Origin: Nitrospira lenta
Lineage (GTDB): Bacteria > Nitrospirota > Nitrospiria > Nitrospirales > Nitrospiraceae
Length of the DNA: 64,000 bases
Reading direction: 5' to 3'
Assembly (NCBI RefSeq): GCF_900403705.1
Contig: NZ_OUNR01000001.1
Location: 1 to 64,000, forward strand
A program made the position numbers and the translations under genes. The notes under the pieces are model-generated. The model saw only the letters and a list, made by a program, of their open reading frames with translations. It was not told where the DNA came from and ran no database searches. Every line of letters starts with the position of its first letter. Position 1 is the first letter of the stretch. Shown piece after piece: positions 25,379-63,747 of this stretch.

Positions 25379-26563
25379 CTACGTTCGCACGCGAAGCTTT
25401 TTCATTTCCCGAATGGTTCCCGTCTCTCGTGTGTCGTAGCCGCCGAGCGCTTCGATTTCCGACCGAAACACGCGGCTGACGATCGTATTGAAGAAGATCG
25501 ACAGCGTGGGATGTTGGGCGAGCAGCTGAGTAGGAATGACCAAATCGTAGCGTTCATCCTGGAGCGGGATGAAATCGAGGTTGTAGAGCCTCGCCACGGA
25601 GCGAAGGCCGATCCCCGCATCCACCTGCTCCTCCGCGATGTGCCTGGCGATTTCGATGTGGGAGGTAGCGAGATGATCATACCCCTTGATGTGATTCGGC
25701 TTGAGGCCGACCCCGCGTAGCCTGCGATCGAGTAACTCGCGCGCCCCGGATCCGGATTCACGATTCATGATCGCGATGTTTTTCCGGTCCAGATCGGCCA
25801 CCTCTCGGATCTGCTTCGGATTCCCGCGCTTGACCATGAGCCCCGCTTCCCATTGGGCGAAGGTCACGATGGTCACATCACCCGCGCCGAGATGCTTCCG
25901 GAGATAAGGCAAATTCCACTCGCCGGATTGCGTATCTTGAACGTGCAGTCCCGCGACATGCACCTCCCGGCGCTTGACCGCTTCAAGCGCCGCAGCACTT
26001 CCCATCGTCCATCCGACGACGGAGGTCTTTTCGTTCTGCCGGCGAACGTATTCTCCGACAAGGAAAATCGCCGGATCGCAGCCGGCCACGATGATCTCGT
26101 CCTCGATGAACCGGTGATCGCGAAGCAATTCCACCTTGACGTTTCGGGTCCCCCGCCGTGACCCCGCAGCGGCCCCAAGCAGCAAGCCATCCGCAGGCAC
26201 CGTGAGACTCAAGACATCCCCTAATTCCGACACCGGCCGTACGATCGTGCGATCGCCGATCTTGGCGACCTTGACGCGAATCCGGTCCGCAACAGGCGCC
26301 GATCCGATCAGCTCGCCCTCGATCACTTCCCCATCGGAAATCAGCGAGAAAATATCTTCAACCCGGCACTGAAGTGACTTGGCTAAACGCAGCGCAACCG
26401 GGGTCGTTGGAAAATAGCGCGACGTTTCTATCGCATAGACTGCCTGCCGCGTCAGCCCCGCCATCTGAGCCAAGTCGCCTTGAGACAACCCCGTGGCTGA
26501 CCGGAGGGCCTTCAGACGGTTCTCAATATTGCTGGCCGGCTCTGCTTTGCTTTTGTCACTCAT
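25379..26563 (-). CDS. XRE-type HTH regulator with PBP-like ligand domain (molybdate/tungstate-type)
   Basis: The 394-residue protein has a XRE-family HTH at residues 14-68 (LSQGDLAQMAGLTRQAVYAIE). A middle region of about 80 residues follows, then a periplasmic-binding-protein-like domain (about 150-380) with ESGSGARELLDRRL, of the PF12727 type often found with molybdate genes. It is a soluble one-component sensor. A paralogue lies at 62513-63706. The next gene upstream in transcription is mop, which supports Mo/W sensing. No SD precedes ATG 26563. A TTGACA box 38 bases before the ATG suggests a leaderless mRNA, and a 23-bp palindrome at 26597-26619 suggests autoregulation. Confidence 0.85.
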   Translation of the reverse strand: MSDKSKAEPASNIENRLKALRSATGLSQGDLAQMAGLTRQAVYAIETSRYFPTTPVALRLAKSLQCRVEDIFSLISDGEVIEGELIGSAPVADRIRVKVAKIGDRTIVRPVSELGDVLSLTVPADGLLLGAAAGSRRGTRNVKVELLRDHRFIEDEIIVAGCDPAIFLVGEYVRRQNEKTSVVGWTMGSAAALEAVKRREVHVAGLHVQDTQSGEWNLPYLRKHLGAGDVTIVTFAQWEAGLMVKRGNPKQIREVADLDRKNIAIMNRESGSGARELLDRRLRGVGLKPNHIKGYDHLATSHIEIARHIAEEQVDAGIGLRSVARLYNLDFIPLQDERYDLVIPTQLLAQHPTLSIFFNTIVSRVFRSEIEALGGYDTRETGTIREMKKLRVRT

Positions 26564-26772: not shown

Positions 26773-26976
26773 TTACTTCCCGATCATCACCTCGGTCGCC
26801 TTGACGGCCACCGTCACGGTATCCCCGTTCTTCAAGCCCATATTCTTGACCGAGCCCTCCGTGATCGCCGCGACAAATTCGAGGCTTCCCACCTTCACCG
26901 TCACTTCAGCCATCGCGGCGCCCTCGGTGATCTTTGTGACCGTTCCCTGAAATTGATTCCGTGCGCTGAGCTTCAT
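26773..26976 (-). CDS. mop: Molbindin / molybdenum-pterin-binding protein Mop
   Basis: The 67-residue protein is a single Mop/TOBE domain: MKLSARNQFQGTVTKITEGA, then EVTVKVGSLEFVAAIT and VKNMGLKNGDTVTVAVKATEVMI. Molbindins assemble as hexamers and store molybdate or tungstate in the cytoplasm. It follows the HTH-TOBE gene by 10 bp and is probably co-transcribed with it. An AGGAGA lies before the ATG. Confidence 0.93.
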   Translation of the reverse strand: MKLSARNQFQGTVTKITEGAAMAEVTVKVGSLEFVAAITEGSVKNMGLKNGDTVTVAVKATEVMIGK

Positions 26977-26986
26977 GAGATTCTCC

Positions 26987-27388
26987 TTAGTCTTTCACGA
27001 CCATAACTTCGGTTGCTTTCACGAGGGCGATGGCGGTGTCTCCGACACGCAGCCCAAGGTCCTCAAGTGCATCCCGCGTAATCACAGCCGTAATTCTGTG
27101 TGAACCGATATTGATGTCTACTTGCGCCATGATCGCGTCCCGTTTAATCGCCGTCACTTTCCCGACCAACTTGTTGCGCCCGCTGACGTCTTCGCCGCCG
27201 GCTTTTTGCTTTCCCATCGATCGGTCAAGGAGCGATTTACTGAACCGGTACCGGCCGCCGATCTTTGGCGCGTGCAGCTTCCCCTCCCAGATGTACCGGT
27301 AGAAGGTCGGCAACGTCAGACGCACGTACTTGGCGGCTTCTTTCGCGGTCAGGACGTCACCTGCTCCGTCTCGGGATCTCCCTGCCAT
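26987..27388 (-). CDS. Helix-turn-helix (excisionase-type) protein with C-terminal TOBE domain
   Basis: The product combines a MerR/excisionase-like HTH (LTAKEAAKYVRLTLPTFYRY, residues 12-31) with a C-terminal Mop/TOBE domain (GRNKLVGKVTAIKRDAIMAQ onward). It is a likely molybdate-responsive DNA-binding protein. I chose ATG 27388 (133 residues) because GGAAAGGG lies eight bases upstream and the domain starts right after. ATG 27463 (158 residues) is an alternative. The further open frame to 27718 does not look coding. It precedes mop by 10 bp. Confidence 0.78.
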   Translation of the reverse strand: MAGRSRDGAGDVLTAKEAAKYVRLTLPTFYRYIWEGKLHAPKIGGRYRFSKSLLDRSMGKQKAGGEDVSGRNKLVGKVTAIKRDAIMAQVDINIGSHRITAVITRDALEDLGLRVGDTAIALVKATEVMVVKD

Positions 27389-28050
27389 CAGCAACACCCT
27401 TTCCCCGGCTGCGGCACCGAAGATGTCTTCCGCAGCAGGATTGTTCGATTGACCTCCTTTCATCCCGGTGTCGCCTGCGGAGACTGCCCGATCCGTATCT
27501 GCAGTCACCGTAGCATGAGGCCGTGAGAATTGGAGACGAGTCACATGAGAATTTGTCGCTAGTCGAACGTCCCGCGTGACCTGATGCAGATTCAGATATT
27601 CGCACCAAATAATCAAGACCGGCGCCGGCGCCGGCGCTGCCGAGCCACGATCCTCCACAATCCCGATCCAAAGAGACGGGCCTCTCCAAATACTCTGGAA
27701 GTCGAGCGCCACGGCCACACCTCACGATAGGGATCCCCCCGTTGGAAGCACGCACAATCCATAGCGGAGCAGGACGACCCACTGCTCCCTGCCATTTTTA
27801 CCGCTCTCGTAATACGACTTTGAGGAAGGGTTAACACACCGATCAGCGCGGGGTCGTATATATGTCGCAGATAAATTGGGGCAGCCGGTTCTTCTCGAAC
27901 CGTTCATTCCCCTAGCACGCTGTCATCGGACAGGGTCCGGCGGGACCGGGCGGCGGAAGTGAATCGATACCGGTCCATCTCATGGGAAAGCGTCTCAACG
28001 CCTTCAATACCCGAAAATATATTTTGGGCCACTGGGATTCAGAGGAGATC
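27389..28050. other. Divergent intergenic region between the HTH-TOBE gene and the esterase
   Basis: About 660 bp without a convincing gene. A GCCGGC-type repeat run lies near 27624-27641. AT-rich sequence around 27855-27870 (CGTATATATGTCG) is a candidate promoter zone for the leftward genes. The right end holds a palindrome, described separately. Several open frames overlap here, but none has an SD or a recognisable product. Confidence 0.45.
28010..28028. promoter_or_regulatory. AT-rich palindrome before the carboxylesterase gene
   Basis: The 19-bp sequence has CCC and GGG ends flanking the perfect 12-bp palindrome AAAATATATTTT, with one mismatched pair. It lies 22 bases before ATG 28051, just upstream of the AGGAG. 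It could be a repressor site or form a hairpin in the leader. Function is inferred from position only. Confidence 0.4.
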
Positions 28051-38853: not shown

Positions 38854-39999
38854 TTATGCGGCCGTCCGATTCATCTTCCGCCGCGCGATTCCGACGATCC
38901 CGACAATCCCGCTTCCGAACAACCACACCGCCGCCGGCACGGGAACCGGAGTCAACGGCGCCCCGAGTACTTCCAGCCCCACAAGATTGGACACAAAGCG
39001 GCCCGCCCGGACATCTCCGGGAACAATCAGTCTGGCGAAACCAGCCGTCCCCAATCCCGCGCCGCTTTCGTCGTATGCCACCAGGATGTCGTCGGCGCCG
39101 AAGTTCGGATTGAACTCGCCCAGCGACACAACCGCCTTGTATCCGTCGCTGCCGGTCGCGACCACATACTTTCCAAGAATATCGTTCTTCACGCTGGGGT
39201 CAGTGACGATGCCGCCACCGGCCGCCGCGCTCGTCAACAGTGTCCAGAGCGAGACCCCGGTAAAGGTTCTGACTTGCGGAGTCGGATTTCCGCCCGACAA
39301 GACAGACACCGTCTTCGTGATTGACGGCAGCGCTTGCAGATCGGCCAGGTTAAACGCGCGCGGGTTCACAATCTGGCCCGCCAAGGCAAAGGACTGAGAC
39401 AGCCCGCCGCCGGTTCCCTGAATCTGCGACGAATCAGTGGCGCTGAACACATCGATTCGACTGATGTTCGAGACATAGCGTCCGCCGCGGGCATCGGTGG
39501 GGGCCGTGGTTCTGGCAAATCCGTCGTTTCCAAGGCCGGTCGGCGCCGACCCGGATGGGTTGGCCTGTTGGTAGGCGATCACGGACTGCGTCTGGCCGAA
39601 ATTGGGATGAATTTCCCCGACAGAGGTCACCGCTCGATATCCGTCGCTTCCCGTCACCACGACATAATCGCGGAGCGCATCGTTACCGACGCCTGGAGTC
39701 AGGACAATTCCGCCACCGCCGTTCACCCCCGGATCGTTCAAAAAGTTGTACAGCGACGCGCCCGTGAAGTCCTGCGTGACCGAGGTCGAGCCCGCCAGAT
39801 ACGTCGTCGTCTGGGTAATGGGCACGAAGGCCTGCAAGTTACTGAGATTGTAGGTGCCGGGGTTATTGACGATACCGGAGAGCGCGAACGAATCGGTCGT
39901 CGGAAGCGCGTGGGCCTGGCCGCTAAGAATAGCCGCACAGGCCACGGCGGCAAAGGCAGACCGCAACACGGCGGTACTGGAACGGGCTGGGCGAAGCAT
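38854..39999 (-). CDS. Duplicated molybdopterin-oxidoreductase-like secreted protein with VPxPA tail
   Basis: The 381-residue protein has a signal peptide, two copies of a domain of about 150 residues (about 35-187 and 200-348), and tail TPVPVPAAVWLFGSGIVGIVG. Each copy contains NPGTYNLSNLQAF-like, FTGASLYNFL-like and GSDGYRAVxSxGE-like segments, as in small sulfite-oxidase-fold (Oxidored_molyb) proteins. The mature part has no cysteine, so the Mo-ligating residue of sulfite oxidase is missing. A well-formed promoter lies at 40178-40206. Binding of a molybdenum cofactor is uncertain. Confidence 0.75.
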   Translation of the reverse strand: MLRPARSSTAVLRSAFAAVACAAILSGQAHALPTTDSFALSGIVNNPGTYNLSNLQAFVPITQTTTYLAGSTSVTQDFTGASLYNFLNDPGVNGGGGIVLTPGVGNDALRDYVVVTGSDGYRAVTSVGEIHPNFGQTQSVIAYQQANPSGSAPTGLGNDGFARTTAPTDARGGRYVSNISRIDVFSATDSSQIQGTGGGLSQSFALAGQIVNPRAFNLADLQALPSITKTVSVLSGGNPTPQVRTFTGVSLWTLLTSAAAGGGIVTDPSVKNDILGKYVVATGSDGYKAVVSLGEFNPNFGADDILVAYDESGAGLGTAGFARLIVPGDVRAGRFVSNLVGLEVLGAPLTPVPVPAAVWLFGSGIVGIVGIARRKMNRTAA

Positions 40000-40570: not shown

Positions 40571-41074
40571 TTATTTTCCCAATGGAGGTTCATTGAGCCC
40601 TTTGGCCGGAGGCCCTTCCGCCTGATTCTTTTCCGACTGGGTGGAAACGGGTGGCGGCGGTACGGCCGACCCAACCGAACCTGCCTGCTCAATCTCCTTA
40701 AGGTAGTCCGTCGTTGCTCTCAATCGCTGCTGTAGATCGGATTGCTCTGCCTTCAAGGAGCGCACGATCGCGTCGCGGAGCGTCGCATTGGCCCCTTGAG
40801 ACGCGACCCGCTCCTTCTGCAGCGCGTCTTGTAACACCTGTAGCTCCCGCACCTTGTCAGACAGACTTGCGAGAGTATGCGCCTGCGCCTCGAAAGCCTT
40901 GACGATATGCACCTGCAGCTCTTCAGCGGCTTTCTGCTTGGCCTCGCTCTGCGCGCGCATCTCCTGCATCTCTTTCTGAACGTTTTGCCGTACGCCTGCC
41001 AGATCTTGAGACGTGGCGCATCCGAACATCACGGCGGTCATAGCGAAAAGACAATGCCTCAATCGAATATGCAC
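40571..41074 (-). CDS. Coiled-coil lipoprotein
   Basis: The 167-residue protein has a signal ending AMTAVMFGCATS (lipobox-like before C19). A long helix follows, rich in Gln, Glu and Ala with coiled-coil periodicity, and a Pro-rich C-terminus. I chose the GTG at 41074 because AGGAGG lies four bases upstream. ATG 41089 would add five residues but lies before the SD. It follows the TOBE-like gene by 23 bp and is likely co-transcribed. The family is not recognised. Confidence 0.72.
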   Translation of the reverse strand: MHIRLRHCLFAMTAVMFGCATSQDLAGVRQNVQKEMQEMRAQSEAKQKAAEELQVHIVKAFEAQAHTLASLSDKVRELQVLQDALQKERVASQGANATLRDAIVRSLKAEQSDLQQRLRATTDYLKEIEQAGSVGSAVPPPPVSTQSEKNQAEGPPAKGLNEPPLGK

Positions 41075-41097
41075 GGCGCCTCCTTTCATGATTCCTG

Positions 41098-41655
41098 TCA
41101 GACTTGAGCAATGCCGGACGACGACTCATCCGCCACGCGTGACACCAACAGTCGCCGCTGAAGCCGGGCGCAGGTCCCCAGCGGGACGACGCGCATGGCA
41201 CCGGGAGCGATACTCAGCGTGACGCAATCCCAGACCTGCAACGCTCTCCCCTGCCCAATGTCCATACTCAGACTCTTAAGCGTCACCTGCTGCCCGCGAA
41301 TCTTGACGGTCACGAGGCCTCGGTCGCGCTCAACCAGCACGACCCGGCCCACCCATTCGTTGCATCCCGCAGAAACAGCAGATGGCAAGACCCTCACTTT
41401 TACATCTGCCGCATCAATGGCCAATAGCACGCGATGGCCGGCCTCAAAGAACCGTTGCACCTCCGGCGCGCACACGGTGTCATCTATTTCCAAATCCAGT
41501 ACTCCACCGTCATCTGTGCGCACATACAGCGTCTGCTGTGATTGTACGGCGACGGCCAGAATGGTGCCCATGATCCGATTGATAACCCGGCGGGGCGTCC
41601 CGCTATGAGATGAAAGCGTGAGATCGATTTCAGAATCCCTAACGAGCATGGCCAT
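41098..41655 (-). CDS. TOBE/Mop-like double-domain protein (paralogue of 60538-61410)
   Basis: This is a 185-residue soluble protein with two beta-rich halves. The first (IMGTILAVAVQSQQTLYVRT) and second (WVGRVVLVERDRGLVTVKIR, then TLKSLSMDIG) look like OB/TOBE-type modules. The second half matches the protein at 60538-61410 at WVGRVVL, TVKI, TLKS and WD-V positions. Position next to modABC and a motif-bearing promoter at 41772-41800 suggest a molybdate-related role. The TOBE assignment is by appearance and needs profile support. GGAGAG precedes ATG 41655. Confidence 0.68.
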   Translation of the reverse strand: MAMLVRDSEIDLTLSSHSGTPRRVINRIMGTILAVAVQSQQTLYVRTDDGGVLDLEIDDTVCAPEVQRFFEAGHRVLLAIDAADVKVRVLPSAVSAGCNEWVGRVVLVERDRGLVTVKIRGQQVTLKSLSMDIGQGRALQVWDCVTLSIAPGAMRVVPLGTCARLQRRLLVSRVADESSSGIAQV

Positions 41656-42074: not shown

Positions 42075-43166
42075 TCACTCGGTCAGTCCCTCGACGAGCG
42101 CCGCGGCCTTGATATGCGCGGTAAGCTTCAGCCCCGGCTTGAGATGGAGATGCACGAATGATTTCCGAGTGATCCTGGCCACGAGCGGACAGCCCACATC
42201 GAGCAAAACATCCATGGTCGATTGATCCGCCTCTTTGATGTCGACGACCGTGGCCTCCAGCCGGTTCAAGATACTGGTGTCGACGGAAGGCGGGCCGAGC
42301 ATCAGACTGACATCGCTGGACAAAATATGCGCGCGCAAGGGCTCGCCGATATCGAACGGTCGAAACGGCACATACAGCGACTGCCCATTGAACTGGAGGC
42401 GTGTCAGGCCGAACTCCGGTTCGTGCGCCGCCACCGTGACGTCGATGACCCCGCCGATCGGGTTGGGCCCCAAGGCTTGATGCAGATCGAGCCGGGCAAA
42501 TACTTCGCTCAACGGCCCAACCGCGACAATCTTGCCCTGCCGGAGAAACGCAATGTGATGAGCCAGTTGCAGAATTTCGTTGAGCGAATGGCTCACATAC
42601 ACAATCGGAATCTGCATTTCACGATACAACCGCTGAATGAACGGAAGAATCTCCCGCTTGCGCTCGCCGTCCAGCGACGACAGCGGCTCATCCAGCAGCA
42701 ATAACCGGGGACTGGTCAACAAGGCCCGGCCGATCGCGATGCGTTGCTGCTCACCACCCGACAGTTTGTGGGTTCGGCGGTCCAACAGCGACTCGATGCC
42801 GAGCATCTCCACTACCTGCTCGACGGACACTCTCCGCAGTTGGCTCGGCGTGCGATGAAATCCATACATCAGGTTCGAACGAACGCTCAGATGCGGAAAC
42901 AACCGCGCGTCTTGGAACACATAGCCGATTGAACGCCGGGAGATCGGCACATACAGATCGCGGGACTCGTCTTGCCACACGTCGTCGCCGAGGCGCAGAT
43001 ATCCGCTCGGCGCGCGCTCCAACCCGGCAAGACAACGGACCAGCGTCGTTTTCCCGGACCCGGAAGGACCGAACAGCGCCAGAATTCCCGCCGCCGGCAT
43101 GTCCAATTCAGCCTGCAACCGAAAGTCTGGATACGCGACGTCAAACCGCGCAATCAGGCGGGTCAT
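42075..43166 (-). CDS. modC: Molybdate ABC transporter ATP-binding protein ModC
   Basis: The 363-residue ATPase has Walker A GPSGSGKTT (about residues 33-41), signature LSGGEQQRIAIGRAL, Walker B LLLLDEPLSSLD, and a C-terminal TOBE domain (VVDIKEADQSTMDVLLDVGC, then VHLHLKPGLKLTAHIKAAAL). It powers molybdate import through ModB. Its start overlaps the modB stop by 4 bp. Confidence 0.95.
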   Translation of the reverse strand: MTRLIARFDVAYPDFRLQAELDMPAAGILALFGPSGSGKTTLVRCLAGLERAPSGYLRLGDDVWQDESRDLYVPISRRSIGYVFQDARLFPHLSVRSNLMYGFHRTPSQLRRVSVEQVVEMLGIESLLDRRTHKLSGGEQQRIAIGRALLTSPRLLLLDEPLSSLDGERKREILPFIQRLYREMQIPIVYVSHSLNEILQLAHHIAFLRQGKIVAVGPLSEVFARLDLHQALGPNPIGGVIDVTVAAHEPEFGLTRLQFNGQSLYVPFRPFDIGEPLRAHILSSDVSLMLGPPSVDTSILNRLEATVVDIKEADQSTMDVLLDVGCPLVARITRKSFVHLHLKPGLKLTAHIKAAALVEGLTE

Positions 43167-43834
43167 GATACGTGGATGGGAAATTTACGGTTGAACGCAT
43201 ACACGCCCAGCAGCACCAGAAAGGAAAAGGCGAGCATCCCGGCGGAAATGATATGCGCCTGCGTATACTCCATGACTTCCACGTGATCGAACACCGTCGT
43301 CGAGAGCACGCGCGTTTGCCCTGGGATCGAACCGCCGACCATCAAGACCACGCCGAACTCCCCCATCGTATGGGCGAAGCCGAGCACGATCCCTGAAATA
43401 TACCCGCGGATCGCCAAGGGAGACGCCACCGTCAAAAAGGCGTCGAGCGGAGAGGCGCGCAGAGACCACGCGGCTTCCAACGGCGCTTTGCCGACGGCCT
43501 CAAAGGCCGCGTGCAGCGGCTGAATCACAAACGGCATGGAATAAAACGCCGACGCGATGACCAAGCCCCAAAACGTAAATGCGAACGTCATGCCGGTCAG
43601 CCGGCCGATGGGACCGAACGGCCCCAATGCGACGAGAATATAAAACCCGAGCACCGTCGGCGGGAGCACGATCGGCAGCGCCACCACGGCTTCGACGACC
43701 GCCCGAAACCGCGAGCGGGTATGGGCCAGCCACCACGCGATCGGCGTGCCCACGATCAAGAGCACGATCACCGTCATGCAGGCGAGACGTAAGGTGACCC
43801 AGAGGGCGCTCCAATCGAGTTCGCTCAATTCCAT
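43163..43834 (-). CDS. modB: Molybdate ABC transporter permease ModB
   Basis: The 223-residue permease has five or six transmembrane segments and the binding-protein-dependent transport signature with an EAA-type loop (EAAWSLRASPLDAFLTVASPLAIRG). VLPPTVLGFYILVALG is characteristic of ModB. It forms the membrane channel for molybdate or tungstate. It lies between modA (14 bp) and modC (4-bp overlap). Confidence 0.95.
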   Translation of the reverse strand: MELSELDWSALWVTLRLACMTVIVLLIVGTPIAWWLAHTRSRFRAVVEAVVALPIVLPPTVLGFYILVALGPFGPIGRLTGMTFAFTFWGLVIASAFYSMPFVIQPLHAAFEAVGKAPLEAAWSLRASPLDAFLTVASPLAIRGYISGIVLGFAHTMGEFGVVLMVGGSIPGQTRVLSTTVFDHVEVMEYTQAHIISAGMLAFSFLVLLGVYAFNRKFPIHVS

Positions 43835-43848
43835 ACGTTGCTCACCAC

Positions 43849-44613
43849 TTAGTTCACGTGATAGCCGTACCGCTCGATCACGGCGCGCGCCCGCTGACTC
43901 TGCAAGAATTCCATCAGCGCCTTGGCCGCGAGGCTGTTCTGGCCCTTGGTTAACAACACCGCATCCTGTTTGATCGGTTCGTGGAGATCTTCAGGCACCT
44001 CCCACCGGCTTCCCTTTCCTCGCAGCCTCTCATCGAGCACCTGCGAGAGAGCGAGAAATCCAAGCTCCGCGTTGCCCGACTCCAGAAAGCCGCTGGTCTG
44101 CCCCTGATTTTCTCCCATCACGATCTTGGGCTGGAGACTCTCCCATACACCCAATTTCATCATGGCCTGCATGGCCGCCGTCCCATACGGCGCAGTCTTA
44201 GGATTGGCGATGGCCAAATGCTTGAACGTGCCGGTTCGCAACGTGTCCGCCCCCGTCACCAAGGCAGGGTCCTGGCCCCACAACACAAGCCGTCCGATCG
44301 CATACGTAAACCGGCTTCCTTTTACGCCCAGTCCTTCGTCTTCAAGCAGTTTGGGCCGCTCGTCGTCGGCGGATAAGAACACCTCGAACGGCGCGCCGTT
44401 CTTGATCTGCGCATAAAACTTTCCGCTCGACCCGGCGCTGATCTGGACACTGTGCGCGGAGGCTTTCTCGAACTCTGCCGCAATTTCCTTAAAAGGCGGA
44501 ACGAAATTGGCAGCGACCGCCACTTGCACTTGTTCCGCCTGCGCACCCGGCGCGATGAGCAACCAGGCACAGAGACCCGTAAGACACGACAGCAGCCTTG
44601 ACTGACTGTTCAT
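43849..44613 (-). CDS. modA: Molybdate-binding periplasmic protein ModA
   Basis: The 254-residue protein has a signal peptide ending APGAQA, then the ModA sequence VAVAANFVPPFKEIAAEFEK and SAGSSGKFYAQIKNGAPFEVF, with the Ser residues that hold the oxyanion. It captures molybdate or tungstate in the periplasm for ModBC. It follows a small exported gene by nine bases and is probably the second gene of a five-gene operon. Confidence 0.95.
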   Translation of the reverse strand: MNSQSRLLSCLTGLCAWLLIAPGAQAEQVQVAVAANFVPPFKEIAAEFEKASAHSVQISAGSSGKFYAQIKNGAPFEVFLSADDERPKLLEDEGLGVKGSRFTYAIGRLVLWGQDPALVTGADTLRTGTFKHLAIANPKTAPYGTAAMQAMMKLGVWESLQPKIVMGENQGQTSGFLESGNAELGFLALSQVLDERLRGKGSRWEVPEDLHEPIKQDAVLLTKGQNSLAAKALMEFLQSQRARAVIERYGYHVN

Positions 44614-44622
44614 GAGACTCCT

Positions 44623-45171
44623 CTATTTGTATTGATTGAATCCGATCATAAAACCCTCCGGGCCGAACACCTCCAAGCGAACGGCCTGGCGGTCGCCGCG
44701 CTTCACCTCCGGCTTCAGCCGAAACCGGATGATCGCATTCCGCTCTGACTCCCCCAGCTTCGCGACTGGGGACGCTTGATAGAATCGTTCCAGCTCCTGC
44801 TGAACGGCCGCCGCGTCCGGCACGGAGAAATTGATCTGTACCCATCCGGTCGGGCGCGGCTGTTGTAAGTCCTGCCGCACAACAATCGAGAGCCCGCGAT
44901 AACAGTAGCCCTTGAGACGATCCCGGCCAGGATGTTCGCGTTGCTCGATCACCGGCGCCTTTACGATGTCGAAGAACTGTTCATAGGGGGCCAGATCCGA
45001 CGTTTCAATCTGAACGCTTTCGACCCCGGCCCCGGATAGACAGGCGGACGACACAGGCGACATCTGGGAATGTCCCTCGTGCGGCGAACCAGCCCCATCG
45101 GCGGAATATCCGCTCACCGGAACCGACAGGGCGACCACCATCCCTAACACGACACACCGACGACGATTCAT
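44623..45171 (-). CDS. Exported VOC (glyoxalase-fold)-like protein
   Basis: The 182-residue protein has a signal peptide (VVLGMVVALSVPVSGYSA) and a single domain that looks like a half of the vicinal-oxygen-chelate fold: VESVQIETSDLAPYEQFFDI, then WVQINFSVPDAAAVQQELERF and a terminal EVFGPEGFMIGFNQ. Metal ligands cannot be assigned by eye. It lies nine bases upstream of modA, so it may be a periplasmic accessory of molybdate uptake. ATG 45171 has AGAGGTG upstream. Confidence 0.68.
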   Translation of the reverse strand: MNRRRCVVLGMVVALSVPVSGYSADGAGSPHEGHSQMSPVSSACLSGAGVESVQIETSDLAPYEQFFDIVKAPVIEQREHPGRDRLKGYCYRGLSIVVRQDLQQPRPTGWVQINFSVPDAAAVQQELERFYQASPVAKLGESERNAIIRFRLKPEVKRGDRQAVRLEVFGPEGFMIGFNQYK

Positions 45172-45175
45172 GGAT

Positions 45176-45451
45176 TCACCTCTGACTCCGTACTCTGAAC
45201 CTGGCTGCTGTCCATTGATGGATCGAGCCCGCTCCGCGGCACTGAACGTCGGAGACATCATCCCCGTTCAATTCAGTGACACACTTATAGGACCCGGCAA
45301 ATCCTTTCCCAAAACGCCGATCTGGTTCGCGTTGTTCGTCTGCGCAGAGCGCGGTTTCTGTGACGGCAAAGGCACAAGCCCCGCACCTCCAAAACGCGCC
45401 CGTCTCAAACATCTTCCGCTGCCGGCAGTTGGGACACCAATGAAGTCTCAT
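45176..45451 (-). CDS. Putative small zinc-ribbon protein
   Basis: The 91-residue frame starts MRLHWCPNCRQRKMFETGAF and continues WRCGACAF, forming a CxxC-14-CxxC zinc-ribbon pattern in the first 30 residues. The remaining two thirds have no recognisable feature and may not be coding in the real protein. GAGGG lies five bases before ATG 45451. It is four bases upstream of the VOC-like gene, which suggests the first gene of the mod operon. Confidence is moderate because of its size. Confidence 0.45.
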   Translation of the reverse strand: MRLHWCPNCRQRKMFETGAFWRCGACAFAVTETALCADEQREPDRRFGKGFAGSYKCVTELNGDDVSDVQCRGAGSIHQWTAARFRVRSQR

Positions 45452-57861: not shown

Positions 57862-57890
57862 TTGACAATGATGTAATGTATTCTGTATTT
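57862..57890 (+). promoter_or_regulatory. Promoter of the lipoprotein-porin-TOBE-regulator operon
   Basis: TTGACA at 57862-57867 is followed 17 bp later by GTATTT (or TATTTC at 18 bp), a plausible though weak -10. ATAGTTGACA at 57858-57867 overlaps the -35 and matches the shared motif. The leader to ATG 57924 would be about 27 bases. Between this and the tpsA promoter nothing else is recognisable. Confidence 0.5.
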
Positions 57891-57923
57891 CTACGAATCA
57901 TCGAAGTGCAACCAGGAATCGCC

Positions 57924-58574
57924 ATGCGGGCATCGCTTACGATCGGGTTACAGTCAACGCTCCTCTTCTTGTCGCTCGGCCTCACGTTCGCCGGTTGCGC
58001 CAGACTCCCCGAGACGACACGCGTGCTGCACGAAGACGATCGCGTCGCGGTACGGCTCGAAACCGACCTTGATGCCCCCCTCAAGGCGTACACCAGCCCA
58101 ACCGAGCTCTCGCAGGAGCACATCCTCACGCTCTTGCGCGGCTATTCCGTTCGCGTCGAATCGCGCGCACCGGTCCGCCTGCTGGTCGACGACACCCCGC
58201 CCAGAAAGCTGTTTCGAGAGATGGAACTCACGGCGCTGGCCCCGGTCCTTCGCGAGGCCTTGCAGACAGTGGGATTTCGAGAGCGGGTCCGCTTTGAAGT
58301 GGTCTCGCCGGGACGGAACCCCCGGTATTGGCGCGATGTCACCGGCGGATGGATCAAGGTGCGGGATCACTATCTGCACCTGCACATCGATTACTTTCAT
58401 GCGGAACAGCCGATCCGTAAGGCGGACGCCTACGATCGGAACTATCCCAGTCCATGGACTCCCGAGAAAACGTACTCGGTGTATTTCGAACCCGGTCGTT
58501 TCTACAGAATCGACCCGCTGTTGAACGATTCCGCCGTGGATCTGAACTTATTGACCGGCGCCACGTCGCCGTAA
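57924..58574 (+). CDS. Lipoprotein of unknown function
   Basis: The 216-residue protein has a clear lipoprotein signal, LSLGLTFAGCARLPE (lipobox FAGC). Its mixed alpha/beta body has no family I recognise; YSVYFEPGRFYRIDPLLND lies near the end. AGGA lies six bases before ATG 57924, preferred over 57876 because it opens the signal peptide. It is first in a rightward operon with a porin, a TOBE-like protein and a response regulator, so an envelope role in the same system is inferred. Confidence 0.75.
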   Translation: MRASLTIGLQSTLLFLSLGLTFAGCARLPETTRVLHEDDRVAVRLETDLDAPLKAYTSPTELSQEHILTLLRGYSVRVESRAPVRLLVDDTPPRKLFREMELTALAPVLREALQTVGFRERVRFEVVSPGRNPRYWRDVTGGWIKVRDHYLHLHIDYFHAEQPIRKADAYDRNYPSPWTPEKTYSVYFEPGRFYRIDPLLNDSAVDLNLLTGATSP

Positions 58575-58667
58575 GGACAACACAATCGTCGGCGTGACAC
58601 GCGCATCGGGCCCCGCGAAAGGTCCCATGAACGCACAGTCATCATGGATTGCATCATGGAATTGGTC

Positions 58668-60506
58668 ATGCGGAACAAGATAACACCGGTGACGCCGGCG
58701 GCAACCGCCCGTCGGCGGCGCACGATCGGACTAATGCTCATGCTGTGCATCGGCGTTGCGAGCGGCATCGACTCTCGAGGCGGTGCCATCGCCGGCGAAA
58801 CCAACGGTCCATTCATCAAGGATCCTCCAGCCGCCGCCGCGGACGGAATCGACCCGGTGACAAAGTTTCTACTAGACGACGCGCTGGCCCAAGGCCGCGT
58901 CACAAAGCAGCGGTACGCAGCCCTGATGCGGGATTACGAGGAGCAGGCTTATCTCCGCCAACCGGCCTTCAAGTTTTGGTACGACCGGGGGTTCAATTTG
59001 GGCACGACCGACAATGCGTTTCTCTTACGCATTCGCGGGCGCCTTGACGCGCAGTTCGTACAGCGCGCGCGCAACGAGGCATGGAGGGACCCGGGCGACG
59101 GAAAAAACTTCCCGGATCTCGTCGGTGTATTCGGAGACTACCGGGTCAATCGGTCGGAGAAGGACGCCTCGACGATGAGCCTTCGTCGCGCCCGCCTATA
59201 CTTCATGGGGCATGTGTTCGACCCGGACATGAAGTTCTTTGTTCAGATCCGCATGGACTCCGCCGGCGATAGCTCGCAGACGCAGAGCGCCGTCCAACTG
59301 TACGACTACTACATCCTCAACACCAAGCTGGACTGGGCGAACGCTCAAATCGGCCAGTACAAAGTCTATTTCAATCGCGCGCAAATCAACTCGACCGCCT
59401 CAATGCAATTCGCTGAGCGCGCCCTCGTGCAGGACGCCTTCACCGCCAGCGGCCTGGACCGCCGCGACATCGGCCTCACAATCATGAACGACGAGGAACG
59501 CCATCCGGTCAATTACTACCTCGGCGTGTTCGGCGGCGCGGGCCCCAACTTTACGCGGCTGGGGAATTTCGACAGTGAACAGATTCAGCAGGGCTGCCCA
59601 GGGGGACAACAGACAGTGCCGTTCCCACCTGGTGCGGTCACTTGCAGCGATATTACGAACACCACCCTTCAGGTGAGCCCCCTGCAACGCAACCTGAATG
59701 CCGATACCCGCCGGAGCCTCGACCGGCTCATGTTTTCAGCCCGGCTTAATTGGAACGTGCTGGGCCGACCGGGATACGGCGAAGGAGATATGGCCTACTC
59801 GAAATCTCCGCAGTTCGCCATCGGCGGCGGCTATGCCTACAACCCGCGCGTCAACACCAGCACGAACAATGCCTTCATCGGAGTCGATCTGGCGAATTTA
59901 AACGTGCGGCGCCAGATCGCGGCGGGCGGCAACGGCCGTCAGTTGGGTTGGGGCGTCGTGGACTATGCCACGTGGGCGGTAGACAGCGTGTTCAAGTACC
60001 GCGGATTCTCCCTACAAGGAGAGTTTTATTACAAGAATGTCATCCGCCGCGAGAAGGGCCCGCCTTGCGTAGAATACTCCCAGCAACTAGGGGTTGGAGG
60101 ATTCATTGCAGGCACTCCGTTCACCTGCACACGCCAGGCACCGGGCGAATTGGGAAATGCCTATGGCTGGTATGCCCAAAGCGGTTATTACCTCATCCCC
60201 CGCTATCTGGAATTGGCCGCACGCTATTCCTACTGGGACCCCGATACCAACGCCGCAGCCGACTTGATCAAGCAGGCGGACGTGTCGCTGAACTGGTTTA
60301 TCAACGGCACCTACGACCATGCGGTCCAAATTACCTACTCGAATGTTGCCATGGGCACCGGTGGCTTTGCCATTGGACGCAGCAACCCATTACCGGTCAT
60401 CAATTCTTCCCAGGCAACGTTTCCCAACGCCTCTATTCCAGTCGATGCCGTCGGCGGCACATTGGTCGAGAACGCGATCAGAATTCAGTACCGATTGTTT
60501 TTTTAA
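58668..60506 (+). CDS. OprO/OprP-type phosphate-selective-like porin
   Basis: The outer-membrane protein (about 612 residues) has a signal peptide, a short periplasmic helix (DPVTKFLLDDALAQGRVTKQ) and a barrel with porin O/P features: LRIRGRLDAQFVQRAR, then SLRRARLYFMGHVFDPDMKFF and AQIGQYKVYFNRAQINS, ending IQYRLFF. The C-terminal phenylalanine suits Bam assembly. Family members pass phosphate or polyphosphate, but selectivity here is unproven; a molybdate-like oxyanion is possible given the context. ATG 58668 is chosen; 58644 and 58656 are alternatives. Confidence 0.85.
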   Translation: MRNKITPVTPAATARRRRTIGLMLMLCIGVASGIDSRGGAIAGETNGPFIKDPPAAAADGIDPVTKFLLDDALAQGRVTKQRYAALMRDYEEQAYLRQPAFKFWYDRGFNLGTTDNAFLLRIRGRLDAQFVQRARNEAWRDPGDGKNFPDLVGVFGDYRVNRSEKDASTMSLRRARLYFMGHVFDPDMKFFVQIRMDSAGDSSQTQSAVQLYDYYILNTKLDWANAQIGQYKVYFNRAQINSTASMQFAERALVQDAFTASGLDRRDIGLTIMNDEERHPVNYYLGVFGGAGPNFTRLGNFDSEQIQQGCPGGQQTVPFPPGAVTCSDITNTTLQVSPLQRNLNADTRRSLDRLMFSARLNWNVLGRPGYGEGDMAYSKSPQFAIGGGYAYNPRVNTSTNNAFIGVDLANLNVRRQIAAGGNGRQLGWGVVDYATWAVDSVFKYRGFSLQGEFYYKNVIRREKGPPCVEYSQQLGVGGFIAGTPFTCTRQAPGELGNAYGWYAQSGYYLIPRYLELAARYSYWDPDTNAAADLIKQADVSLNWFINGTYDHAVQITYSNVAMGTGGFAIGRSNPLPVINSSQATFPNASIPVDAVGGTLVENAIRIQYRLFF

Positions 60507-60537: not shown

Positions 60538-61410
60538 ATGCCGCATCTTAACCGTCAGCCGTCAGAATGGAGCGAACCTCACAGTCACACGTCGCCTCCC
60601 TGCGGAGATGACGCGGCCGCAGCAGCGCTGCGTCCCAATGTCTTGACCGGCGTGGTGATCTCCGGTGCGGCCGGACTCACCAAGACGACGTATCGCATCC
60701 GCATCGGAGAACGTACCGACCTTCATGTACGCTGGCCGCTCGCCGCTCCGGCGCGTCGAACGCTTGAGGCCGGTCAACCCGTGCACCTCACAATCCCGCA
60801 GGAAGCCGTTCAGTTGGAGGCCGGCGGATTTCGCCGCGGCAAGCAACGGTGGAATCGGTGGGTCGGACGTGTTGTCCTGGCGAGCCCACATGGCAAAGCC
60901 GGCTCGACGACCGTCAAGATCCATCAGGATCCCATTACGCTGAAAAGTTCCGCTCCCGTGATCGGCGCGCGCGTGCCGCTGACGACCTGGGATACGGTCA
61001 ACGTCGTGATCGATCCCCAGCGCATACAGGTCTGCCATTGCACCCGGGCTTCCGTCCACACGCCGCCGTCTCGCCTGCCGGCGAATACCGCTGGGACGCC
61101 GACCTCGGTGTGGCTGCGAACCGTCGTCCGCGCCGTACGCGCCATGCCTACCGCGCTTCATCTGACACTAAGCGCAGGCGACGTGACGCTTTCCGTTCTG
61201 ATTGAGGTCGGCACGGCCTCGGCAGCCGCCTGGCAGGTCGGCGATTCGCTCGAAGTCAACATCGGCCACGGCGACGCATGGGTGCGACAACAGGCTCAAG
61301 GCCCTATCGTGCCGTGCTGCATCGTACTCTCCAGCGAGTTCGACGAAGCGCGATCTCTGGGATTCGTTCAGCAGCACGACCGCTCGCGAGCGGCGGCCTC
61401 GATGTCATGA
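60538..61410 (+). CDS. TOBE/Mop-like multi-domain protein (paralogue of 41098-41655)
   Basis: The 290-residue soluble protein has three beta-rich modules: about 28-80 (NVLTGVVISGAAGLTKTTYR), about 95-165 (WVGRVVLASPHGKAGSTTVK, then ITLKSSAPVIG and TWDTVNVVI) and about 185-260 (TSVWLRTVVRAVRAMPTALH). The second matches the smaller paralogue clearly. They look like TOBE or OB modules that could bind molybdate, but this is by eye. GGGAGG lies before ATG 60538, so the longer frame from 60319 within the porin gene is rejected. Confidence 0.7.
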   Translation: MPHLNRQPSEWSEPHSHTSPPCGDDAAAAALRPNVLTGVVISGAAGLTKTTYRIRIGERTDLHVRWPLAAPARRTLEAGQPVHLTIPQEAVQLEAGGFRRGKQRWNRWVGRVVLASPHGKAGSTTVKIHQDPITLKSSAPVIGARVPLTTWDTVNVVIDPQRIQVCHCTRASVHTPPSRLPANTAGTPTSVWLRTVVRAVRAMPTALHLTLSAGDVTLSVLIEVGTASAAAWQVGDSLEVNIGHGDAWVRQQAQGPIVPCCIVLSSEFDEARSLGFVQQHDRSRAAASMS

Positions 61411-61461
61411 CGCGACTATTTCAGTCCCATTATTTTGTCACACCGGAAAAGAGGTACCACC

Positions 61462-62355
61462 ATGCGCATCAAGATGTTCAAGGGCACTGTGCTCCTCGTC
61501 ACCCTCAATGAGCGCCTCAGGAACAACCTCCGGACGGCGATGCTGCAGGCCGGCTATATGTTTATGGCGGTTCGGAATCAGGATGAAGCACTCCGGAAGC
61601 TGCGAACCTCCGACTTGTCGATCATCGTCGTGGACCGTCACGAATCCGGGTTCTTGCGCCTGCATCACGAAACGCCCTTCCGCATTCCCATCGTGACCAT
61701 CGCCCATCACGCCGAAGGCTGCGATGAACAACATTGCATCCAAGATCTCGAGAATGGCGCGGCCAGAGCCGTGTGCAACGCAAGCAGCGCAATGGTCGTC
61801 GCCCTGACGGGAGCCATCCTTCGCCGCCAGCGATGGGATCGCTCGGTTTCAGACCTCTACCGGTTTGACGGCGTCACTATCGACTTGCAGAACTATACGG
61901 TCAGCGTTGCCGGGACACCGGTCAATGTGAAGCCGACTGAATTTCGCATTTTGAAAAGCCTCGCGATTGCGCCCGGACACTTCCTGTCCCGCAATGCCTT
62001 GATTGATCGCGTCTGGGGTGAAGATTACGCCCTCTGCCCGCACACGCTCGATGTTCACATCTCCTCAATCCGGCAGCAACTTGTCCCCTATGGCGTATCG
62101 TCGGATTTCGTGTCAACCGTCAGGGGACTCGGATTCAAACTGCGATCGGCCTCTGCCCGCAGCAAGACCCCGGTCGATCAGTCATCCCCTCTCGTGGCTC
62201 AGGCCTTTACACCCCAACCCGTCAGCGTACGCCAACCACGCGCGCGCGCCATGAAGAGCGCGGCAGCGGGAGGGGCTCCGTGGAGACACACCCCGGCCGA
62301 AGCTCTTTCCGCGCGATATCGCATCAAGCCTGCTCAAACGCGCGATGAACAATAG
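61462..62355 (+). CDS. OmpR/PhoB-type response regulator with degenerate receiver
   Basis: The 297-residue protein has an N-terminal receiver-like domain (residues 8-125) and an OmpR/PhoB winged helix (about 135-235) with NVKPTEFRILKSLAIAPGHF, RNALIDRVWGEDYAL and VDVHISS-like HTLDVHISSIRQQL. The phosphoacceptor position may be D58 in IIVVDRHES, but the acidic pair after beta-1 is replaced (LLVTLNE instead of the usual VVDDE). Phosphorylation by a kinase is therefore doubtful. No histidine kinase is nearby. GAGG lies eight bases before ATG 61462. It probably controls this locus. Confidence 0.82.
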   Translation: MRIKMFKGTVLLVTLNERLRNNLRTAMLQAGYMFMAVRNQDEALRKLRTSDLSIIVVDRHESGFLRLHHETPFRIPIVTIAHHAEGCDEQHCIQDLENGAARAVCNASSAMVVALTGAILRRQRWDRSVSDLYRFDGVTIDLQNYTVSVAGTPVNVKPTEFRILKSLAIAPGHFLSRNALIDRVWGEDYALCPHTLDVHISSIRQQLVPYGVSSDFVSTVRGLGFKLRSASARSKTPVDQSSPLVAQAFTPQPVSVRQPRARAMKSAAAGGAPWRHTPAEALSARYRIKPAQTRDEQ

Positions 62356-62512: not shown

Positions 62513-63706
62513 TTACTCCGGCCGCAATTGCCGGATCTTTCCCGTCTCCGTGGTATCGTAGCCCCCAAGTGCTTCAATCTCCGTGCGGAACTGGCGGCTG
62601 ACGATCGCCTCAAGAAGATTGCCGATACTGGGATGGGCCGTTAAATACGGCTTGGGCACGACGAGATCGTAGCGGGACTGCTGCAAGGGGATAAAATCCA
62701 ATCCAAACATATTGCTGGCCGACCGGACACCGACTCCGACGTCGGCCTGCCCTTCCGCAATGCGCCGCGCGACTTGAAAGTGTGAATCCGCAATCAAGTT
62801 GTAGCCTCGCACATCCCGATTCCGCATCCCTTCTTTTTCGAGCCGTTGGTCCAATAAGTGGCGCGCCCCGGCGCCCTCTTCGCGATTGATGAGCGTCACA
62901 TCGCTCCTGGAGAGATCTTCGATCTTGCGAATGCCTTTGGGGTTTCCCTGCCGCACGATCAATCCTTCCTCCCAGGCGGCAAACGTCACAATCAGATAGT
63001 CATCGCCCCGCAAGTGCTGGCGCAGATACGGCAGGTTGGACTCGCCGGTTTTCCCATCCACGATATGCAAGCCGGCCACATGCACTTCTCGACGCTTCAA
63101 CGCCTCGAGCGCGGCGCTGCTCCCCATGGTCCAGCCGGTTACCGTGGCCGTTTCTTTATACCGGCGCAAATATTCTCCGGCGAGGAAGATCGCGGGATCA
63201 CAGCCGGCAATGGCAATTTCTTGCTCGATGATACGACGATCTCTGAGAAGCTGGACCCGTGCGCGCTTCGCCGCCTTTCCGCGAGCCTTCGCAGACACGT
63301 CATTGGCTACCAGCAGACCGTCGGCCGGAACCGTATAGGCGAGCAGCTCGCCTAGGGCCGTGACCGGTCGAATCACATACCGGTCCTCGACTCTAGCCAC
63401 CTTGACTCGCAGCGGCATCTGATTATCGTCCCACCGATCCTGCTCCCCAACCAGTTCACCGATGACAATTTCTCCCGTTGCCCGCAGACTGAAGAGGTCT
63501 TCCACCCGGCAGCCGATGACCCCCGCCAAGCGCAATGCTACGGCCGTGGTGGGAAGATACTGGCTGCTTTCAATGGAAGACACCGCCTGACGGGTGATAT
63601 GGGCAGACTTCGCCAAATCCCCTTGGGACAAGCCCTTTGCGACCCGAAGGGCCTTCAGCCGATTGTCGATATTGCTGACTGGCTCAGCTCGATGCCGTTC
63701 ACCCAT
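62513..63706 (-). CDS. XRE-type HTH regulator with PBP-like ligand domain (second paralogue)
   Basis: The protein of about 397 residues is a full-length paralogue of the regulator at 25379-26563: XRE HTH LSQGDLAKSAHITRQAVSSIE at residues 26-46, a middle region, then the PBP-like domain with EEGAGARHLLDQRL. Many stretches are identical, including VHVAGLH and CDPAIFL. It should sense the same or a related ligand. ATG 63706 has no SD; a TTGACA box 36 bases upstream suggests a leaderless transcript, as for the other paralogue. A GTG at 63721 is an alternative start. Confidence 0.84.
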   Translation of the reverse strand: MGERHRAEPVSNIDNRLKALRVAKGLSQGDLAKSAHITRQAVSSIESSQYLPTTAVALRLAGVIGCRVEDLFSLRATGEIVIGELVGEQDRWDDNQMPLRVKVARVEDRYVIRPVTALGELLAYTVPADGLLVANDVSAKARGKAAKRARVQLLRDRRIIEQEIAIAGCDPAIFLAGEYLRRYKETATVTGWTMGSSAALEALKRREVHVAGLHIVDGKTGESNLPYLRQHLRGDDYLIVTFAAWEEGLIVRQGNPKGIRKIEDLSRSDVTLINREEGAGARHLLDQRLEKEGMRNRDVRGYNLIADSHFQVARRIAEGQADVGVGVRSASNMFGLDFIPLQQSRYDLVVPKPYLTAHPSIGNLLEAIVSRQFRTEIEALGGYDTTETGKIRQLRPE

Positions 63707-63713
63707 CCCATAC

Positions 63714-63747
63714 AAGTACACGCATACTTTACACTATGTCAAGTATT
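63714..63747 (-). promoter_or_regulatory. Promoter/operator of the second XRE-PBP regulator
   Basis: On the minus strand TTGACA (63737-63742) and GTACTT (63714-63719) are spaced by 17 bp. ATACTTGACA (63737-63746) matches the shared motif. Two overlapping inverted repeats, ATACTT with AAGTAT and AAGTA with TACTT, run down toward the start codon. Together with the missing SD this suggests a leaderless mRNA under autoregulation. Confidence 0.5.

Follow-up and report, generated by a model that had tools for sequence, protein, structure and literature searches.

Is an oxyanion still bound by a TOBE barrel that lacks its side-chain ligands, or has such a barrel turned into a regulatory subunit? This question is raised by two proteins of Nitrospira lenta, A and B, whose genes lie in the opening 64 kb of a contig of 1.1 Mb (genome size 3.76 Mb), a stretch referred to here as the window. 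The nitrite oxidoreductase of Nitrospira is a molybdenum enzyme, and the supply of molybdenum therefore bears directly on nitrification. An initial annotation had put A and B forward as a candidate new family of TOBE-like, multi-module proteins that bind molybdate or tungstate. With this family, TOBE proteins that stand free and lack the usual metal-holding residues would join the known architectures for storage, transport and regulation. The two genes are:

41098..41655, - strand: protein A, 185 aa, with two predicted TOBE-like modules and a C-terminal helix (from the ORF, the model and PDB matches)
60538..61410, + strand: protein B, 290 aa, with two predicted TOBE-like modules and a probable third (from the ORF, the ribosome site, Pfam TOBE_2, the AlphaFold model and PDB matches)

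Both ORFs are present at these coordinates, and all of the motifs first used to link them were found again, as EWVGRVVL...VTVKI...VTLKS...VWDCV in A and RWVGRVVL...TTVKI...ITLKS...TWDTV in B. The two proteins are homologous (BLASTP, 46/136 identities, 34%, E 9e-12), and a search of the whole genome with A returned only A itself and B, the latter at E 8e-9. Of 269 genomes of the class, 29 gave family members in a profile search. Chance sharing of motifs between A and B is ruled out by BLASTP, the whole-genome search and these homologs. Synonymous change exceeds non-synonymous change (dN/dS < 1) in those family pairs where it was measurable, which together with the homologs in the class indicates that A and B are real genes. 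A ggagg ribosome site precedes B. The family had no name before, and a literature search of partial coverage returned no paper on it.

The proposed TOBE-like fold is supported by both profile searches and structure prediction, which point to ModG, ModE, ModC and Mop/Tub. AlphaFold models were built on a 12-sequence alignment, with a mean pLDDT of 74 and core blocks of B mostly at 80-94. Residues 30-168 of the B model matched ModG (1h9m) with a Z-score of 17.0 over 135 residues at 2.4 A, followed by the ModE di-Mop domain (1h9s, Z 16.2), the ModC tail (3d31, Z 15.3, 22% identity) and PotA (Z 12.6); unrelated OB folds reached only Z 7 to 8. ModG was likewise the best PDB match of the A model (Z 14.3). 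When single A or B proteins were used as queries, sequence searches of the PDB returned nothing useful, and only the family profile reached ModG: with 25 members against 177,635 PDB sequences, and without recourse to the models, it retrieved ModG (1.1e-6), ModE (5e-5), ModC (0.0036) and Mop/Tub (0.007), a weak match to AlgS and little else. Equally, hhalign of the family profile gave 67% to Mop and 66% and 76% to two sets of ModC tails. Membership of the TOBE superfamily is well supported.

Protein B scores 24.4 bits against Pfam TOBE_2 (PF08402), above the curated 21-bit cut-off, and at E 0.1 TOBE (PF03459) is found in 11/25 family members and TOBE_2 in 10/25. Protein A alone has no Pfam TOBE match and is placed in the superfamily because it is homologous to B. 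Neither protein matches ABC_tran or HTH in Pfam, and neither NCBIfam nor PHROGs holds a family for them. The view that they are unlike simple Mop is supported, and they have no dedicated Pfam, NCBIfam or PHROG family. The family had at first not been recognised; B does reach the TOBE_2 cut-off, so the two proteins represent a divergent TOBE branch and not a wholly unknown family. A below-threshold match of A to Phage-tail_3 (PF13550, E 0.016) was dismissed as chance. Simple descent from a ModC tail is disfavoured: ModC tails and Mop obtain similar scores with the profile, and in each of them family module 1 aligns to a single TOBE domain.

Two readings outside the molybdate proteins have to be weighed against these matches. 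A PilZ fold, named in advance as the outcome that would overturn the TOBE assignment, or another unrelated beta-barrel would fit the beta-rich sequences and a genome with some 30 PilZ domains. When compared with the genome's own PilZ set, hhalign gave only 0.9% for the family and 1.5% for the last module of B, and no Pfam PilZ match was found in A, B or the family members, leaving this reading a negligible chance. A role for the family as nucleic-acid-binding OB proteins in control of the locus would be in keeping with the basic character of most members (pI about 8-11) and with the basic stretch FRRGKQRWNRW that opens the second module in proteins of the B/C type. This stretch is missing from the A type, the nearest structures are those of molybdate proteins and nucleic-acid OB folds rank far lower, and we regard such a role as very improbable.

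Additional similar modules and a multi-module build had also been suggested, and both suggestions were supported: a second TOBE-like module lies ahead of the common one in A and in B, giving two modules in A and two plus a probable third (residues 191-268) in B. The modules are:

60625..60828, + strand: B module 1 (residues 30-97), which matches Pfam TOBE_2 and has a profile alignment to ModG
60829..61044, + strand: B module 2 (residues 98-169), also present in A and marked by NRWVGRVVL/TVKI/TLKS/WD-V (BLASTP, model, PDB matches)
61108..61341, + strand: B module 3 (residues 191-268), a probable third TOBE-like barrel (strand order in the model, hhalign)
41386..41586, - strand: A module 1 (residues 24-90), from the model
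41176..41370, - strand: A module 2 (residues 96-160), the module common to B (BLASTP, model)

The models contain two five-stranded barrels and a C-terminal helix in A and three barrels in B, with unstructured N-terminal regions in both, so that fold class and module number are predicted features. The third barrel of B is probable: its strand order in the predicted model is that of the other modules, and hhalign scored it at 60% against Mop and at 47% against module 1. The window copy of this module has no Pfam match, and PmrD (Z 7.4) is the only entry listed for it among the PDB fold matches.

Whether such barrels hold an oxyanion can be approached through the residues that do so in Tub. In its type-2 tungstate site the ligands are supplied by the side chains of Ser4 and Lys60, by backbone atoms from Arg6 and Ala61, and by Ser40 from the neighbour, and the type-1 site is formed by backbone atoms of three subunits (PMC11980592). 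We assigned the corresponding columns of module 1 from profile alignments, including that to ModG, and those of module 2 by eye from the N-x-x-x-G anchor and the D-P strand. At the position of Ser4, 1/25 members have Ser in module 1 and likewise in module 2, and at that of Lys60, 0/25 members have Lys in either module; the Asn of the SARN motif is retained (21/25 in module 1, 24/25 in module 2). The 26 TOBE domains of Mop, HTH-Mop and ModC proteins taken from the same loci all keep both Ser and Lys; in one row for ModC and in at least four for Mop the automatic motif column fell on an earlier match, and SARN and IKA/VKA were read from the sequences. The core modules therefore have a predicted molbindin fold without the molbindin side-chain site. 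The window-type ModC and its relatives carry S-x-L-N in place of SARN, having lost the Arg and kept Ser and Lys, and a second ModC type in other Nitrospirota retains SARN.

With the type-2 Ser and Lys ligands absent from both core modules, the proposed binding of molybdate or tungstate is so far unsupported. Because the type-1 site uses only backbone atoms it cannot be judged from sequence; after loss of the type-2 side chains, binding may still occur at type-1 sites or through other conserved residues (R111, K127 and S137 of B). Molybdate and tungstate are not told apart by sequence or structure alone (PMC11980592).

Among known systems, ModG of Azotobacter vinelandii (1h9j/1h9k/1h9m), the best fold and profile match, is like A and B free-standing with two tandem TOBE barrels; A and B differ in lacking the Ser and Lys oxyanion ligands and B in its probable third module, and identity is about 17%. 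The two-barrel fold of the ModE di-Mop domain (1h9s, 1o7l) is the same as that predicted for A and B, which have no HTH domain and have lost the ligand residues. The C-terminal regulatory domain of ModC (3d31) shares the two-barrel form and the mod operon setting, whereas A and B have no ATPase domain and lack the ligands that the ModC proteins of the same loci keep. Mop/Tub molbindins (9beb), a weak profile match, have the TOBE barrel in common with A and B, which retain the SARN Asn and the Gly that follows it; they are, however, single domains of 67-70 aa with S-x-R-N and I-K-A, and A and B are 185-290 aa long without either motif. Finally, the TOBE_2 tails of the MalK/PotA type, whose Pfam cut-off module 1 of B reaches and to which the B model is linked by its PotA match, are fused to an ATPase, unlike A and B.

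The surroundings of both genes are as had been described, A beside modABC and B in a porin operon. Gene A follows modC on the same strand, at a distance of 419 bp that holds no other gene, and B starts 31 bp past the stop codon of a Porin_O_P-type porin. The neighbours in the window are:

25379-26563, 26773-26976 and 26987-27718, - strand: a second TaoR-like regulator, Mop and an HTH-Mop protein
40571..41089, - strand: a coiled-coil lipoprotein-like ORF, a recurrent partner of A-type genes
42075..43166, - strand: modC, molybdate ABC transporter ATPase with a C-terminal TOBE (TIGR02142, 421.9 bits; Pfam TOBE)
43163..43834, - strand: modB, permease (Pfam BPD_transp_1)
43849..44613, - strand: modA, substrate-binding protein (Pfam SBP_bac_11)
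44623..45261, - strand: conserved mod-locus neighbour with no Pfam match, near the family gene in 9/25 loci
57876..58574, + strand: conserved ORF upstream of the porin, near the family gene in 12/25 loci
58644..60506, + strand: outer-membrane porin, Porin_O_P (Pfam), ending 31 bp before B
61435..62355, + strand: OmpR/PhoB-type DNA-binding protein downstream of B (Pfam Trans_reg_C)
62513..63721, - strand: HTH_3 + PBP_like regulator (Pfam), near the family gene in 20/25 loci

The HTH_3 + PBP_like architecture of the last gene has been called TaoR-like (PMC11980592). The order of B and the OmpR/PhoB-type gene is kept in three other genomes (G003, G027, G122); the receiver domain of the window protein is barely recognisable (Response_reg, E 0.27). 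The Mop at 26773-26976 is a canonical protein of 67 aa with SARN and VKA motifs; it and the HTH-Mop protein, which adjoin the second TaoR-like HTH + PBP_like regulator, keep the SARN/SGRN and VKA motifs that are absent from A and B. In G122 and G103, relatives of the lipoprotein-like ORF are direct neighbours of A-type genes. A promoter scan upstream of A gave TTGACA-17-CAGAAT at 41800-41772, and such matches were no more numerous than in shuffled sequence.

In a scan of 84,980 species genomes that relies on short conserved patterns, the family was found in Nitrospirota only. A phylum-wide sample of 395 genomes yielded 24, almost all from the taxonomic family of the host, Nitrospiraceae; a single clear member came from a different family of the order, and a marginal match from elsewhere in the class. 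A core tree separates seven A-type sequences on one side of a branch (support 98/100) from 18 of the B/C type. Gene context was counted for the 25 family genes with readable neighbourhoods, and all but one (24/25) lie no more than 6 kb from a porin, TaoR-like regulator, mod gene or Mop. Within 6 kb we found the porin for 21/25, the TaoR-like regulator for 20/25, modA for 19/25, and modB, modC and Mop or HTH-Mop for 14/25 each. Two layouts are common: TaoR-like - porin - modA - modB - modC - family gene, and TaoR-like - porin - family gene - modA - Mop - modB - modC. Two copies in G103 sit outside a clear mod operon, and B and its closest orthologs lie behind the porin with no mod gene nearby. 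In four genomes of the genus from which the family is missing (G127, G024, G129, G017), the TaoR-like - porin - modA - modB - modC operon is kept and stops at modC; the family is therefore a facultative add-on.

A multi-module store or buffer, binding molybdate or tungstate in ModG-like barrels and supplying Moco synthesis, builds on the binding first proposed for A and B. It draws on the closest solved structures, ModG and the ligand-bound ModE di-Mop, on the position of the family genes in an uptake locus, and on the backbone-only type-1 sites (PMC11980592), which would survive the side-chain loss. Against it, equivalents of Ser4 and Lys60 are absent from both core modules of every or almost every member, the window already carries a canonical Mop gene and Mop or HTH-Mop lies near 14/25 copies, and in the genus the majority of genomes that share this ModC manage without the family. 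Given the loss of Ser and Lys and the nearby genes for standard Mop and ModC TOBE domains, which have these residues, the family is most probably no molybdate store, and we rate this reading as rather unlikely. Gene context alone cannot separate a regulator from a buffer.

Modulation appears likelier than storage because a normal Mop and a ModC TOBE are at hand and the gene is dispensable for the operon. We lean towards the reading that the family, in a broad sense, modulates the uptake or homeostasis of Mo/W from within the cytoplasm, a role that we infer. Inspection of A and B by eye showed no signal peptide or membrane segment, and both are presumably cytoplasmic. As modulators, A and B would be Nitrospirota-restricted, free-standing tandem-TOBE proteins that form an optional addition to a molybdate/tungstate uptake operon of TaoR-like regulator, porin, ModA, ModB and ModC, with a two-module core predicted to fold like ModG and the ModE di-Mop domain. 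They may assemble with other TOBE domains, speculatively Mop or the ModC tail, and so tune uptake; weak oxyanion sensing, either at a type-1 site of backbone atoms or by way of partners loaded with ligand, is a speculative addition. More tentatively, and with more doubt than confidence, A and B could be 'pseudo-molbindins', lineage-specific tandem or triple TOBE proteins that have lost oxyanion ligation and regulate molybdate import by co-assembly with ligand-bearing ModC/Mop TOBE domains.

A narrower form of the modulator reading, which overlaps with it, makes A and B a decoy of the ModC tail: the free tandem TOBE would pair with ModC tails and alter transport inhibition while binding no ligand itself. 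The match of the two-barrel core to the ModC tail is in line with this, as is the family gene overlapping or abutting modC in several genomes (G018 and G159, and also G012 and G140, where the two genes share about 20 bp). So is co-occurrence with the window-type ModC, present in 9/10 carriers and 23/69 non-carriers of the genus (Fisher p 0.001, in a test that ignores relatedness). That B and the orthologs closest to it follow a porin and have no mod gene nearby is hard to square with a decoy, however, and the family profile is no nearer to ModC tails than to Mop; we think it unlikely.

Near modABC and A, the window also encodes a PEP-CTERM protein (38854-39999, - strand) with apparently two Oxidored_molyb-like (PF00174) repeats, one of them scored by Pfam. 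Relatives of this protein lie beside A-type genes in two further genomes, at 13 bp in G103 and about 4 kb in G081. Shortened or fused family copies occur in G151 (L058:5782-6018) and G169 (L072:9643-10116), and the G169 copy continues into Oxidored_molyb-protein-like sequence, as if two genes had been joined.
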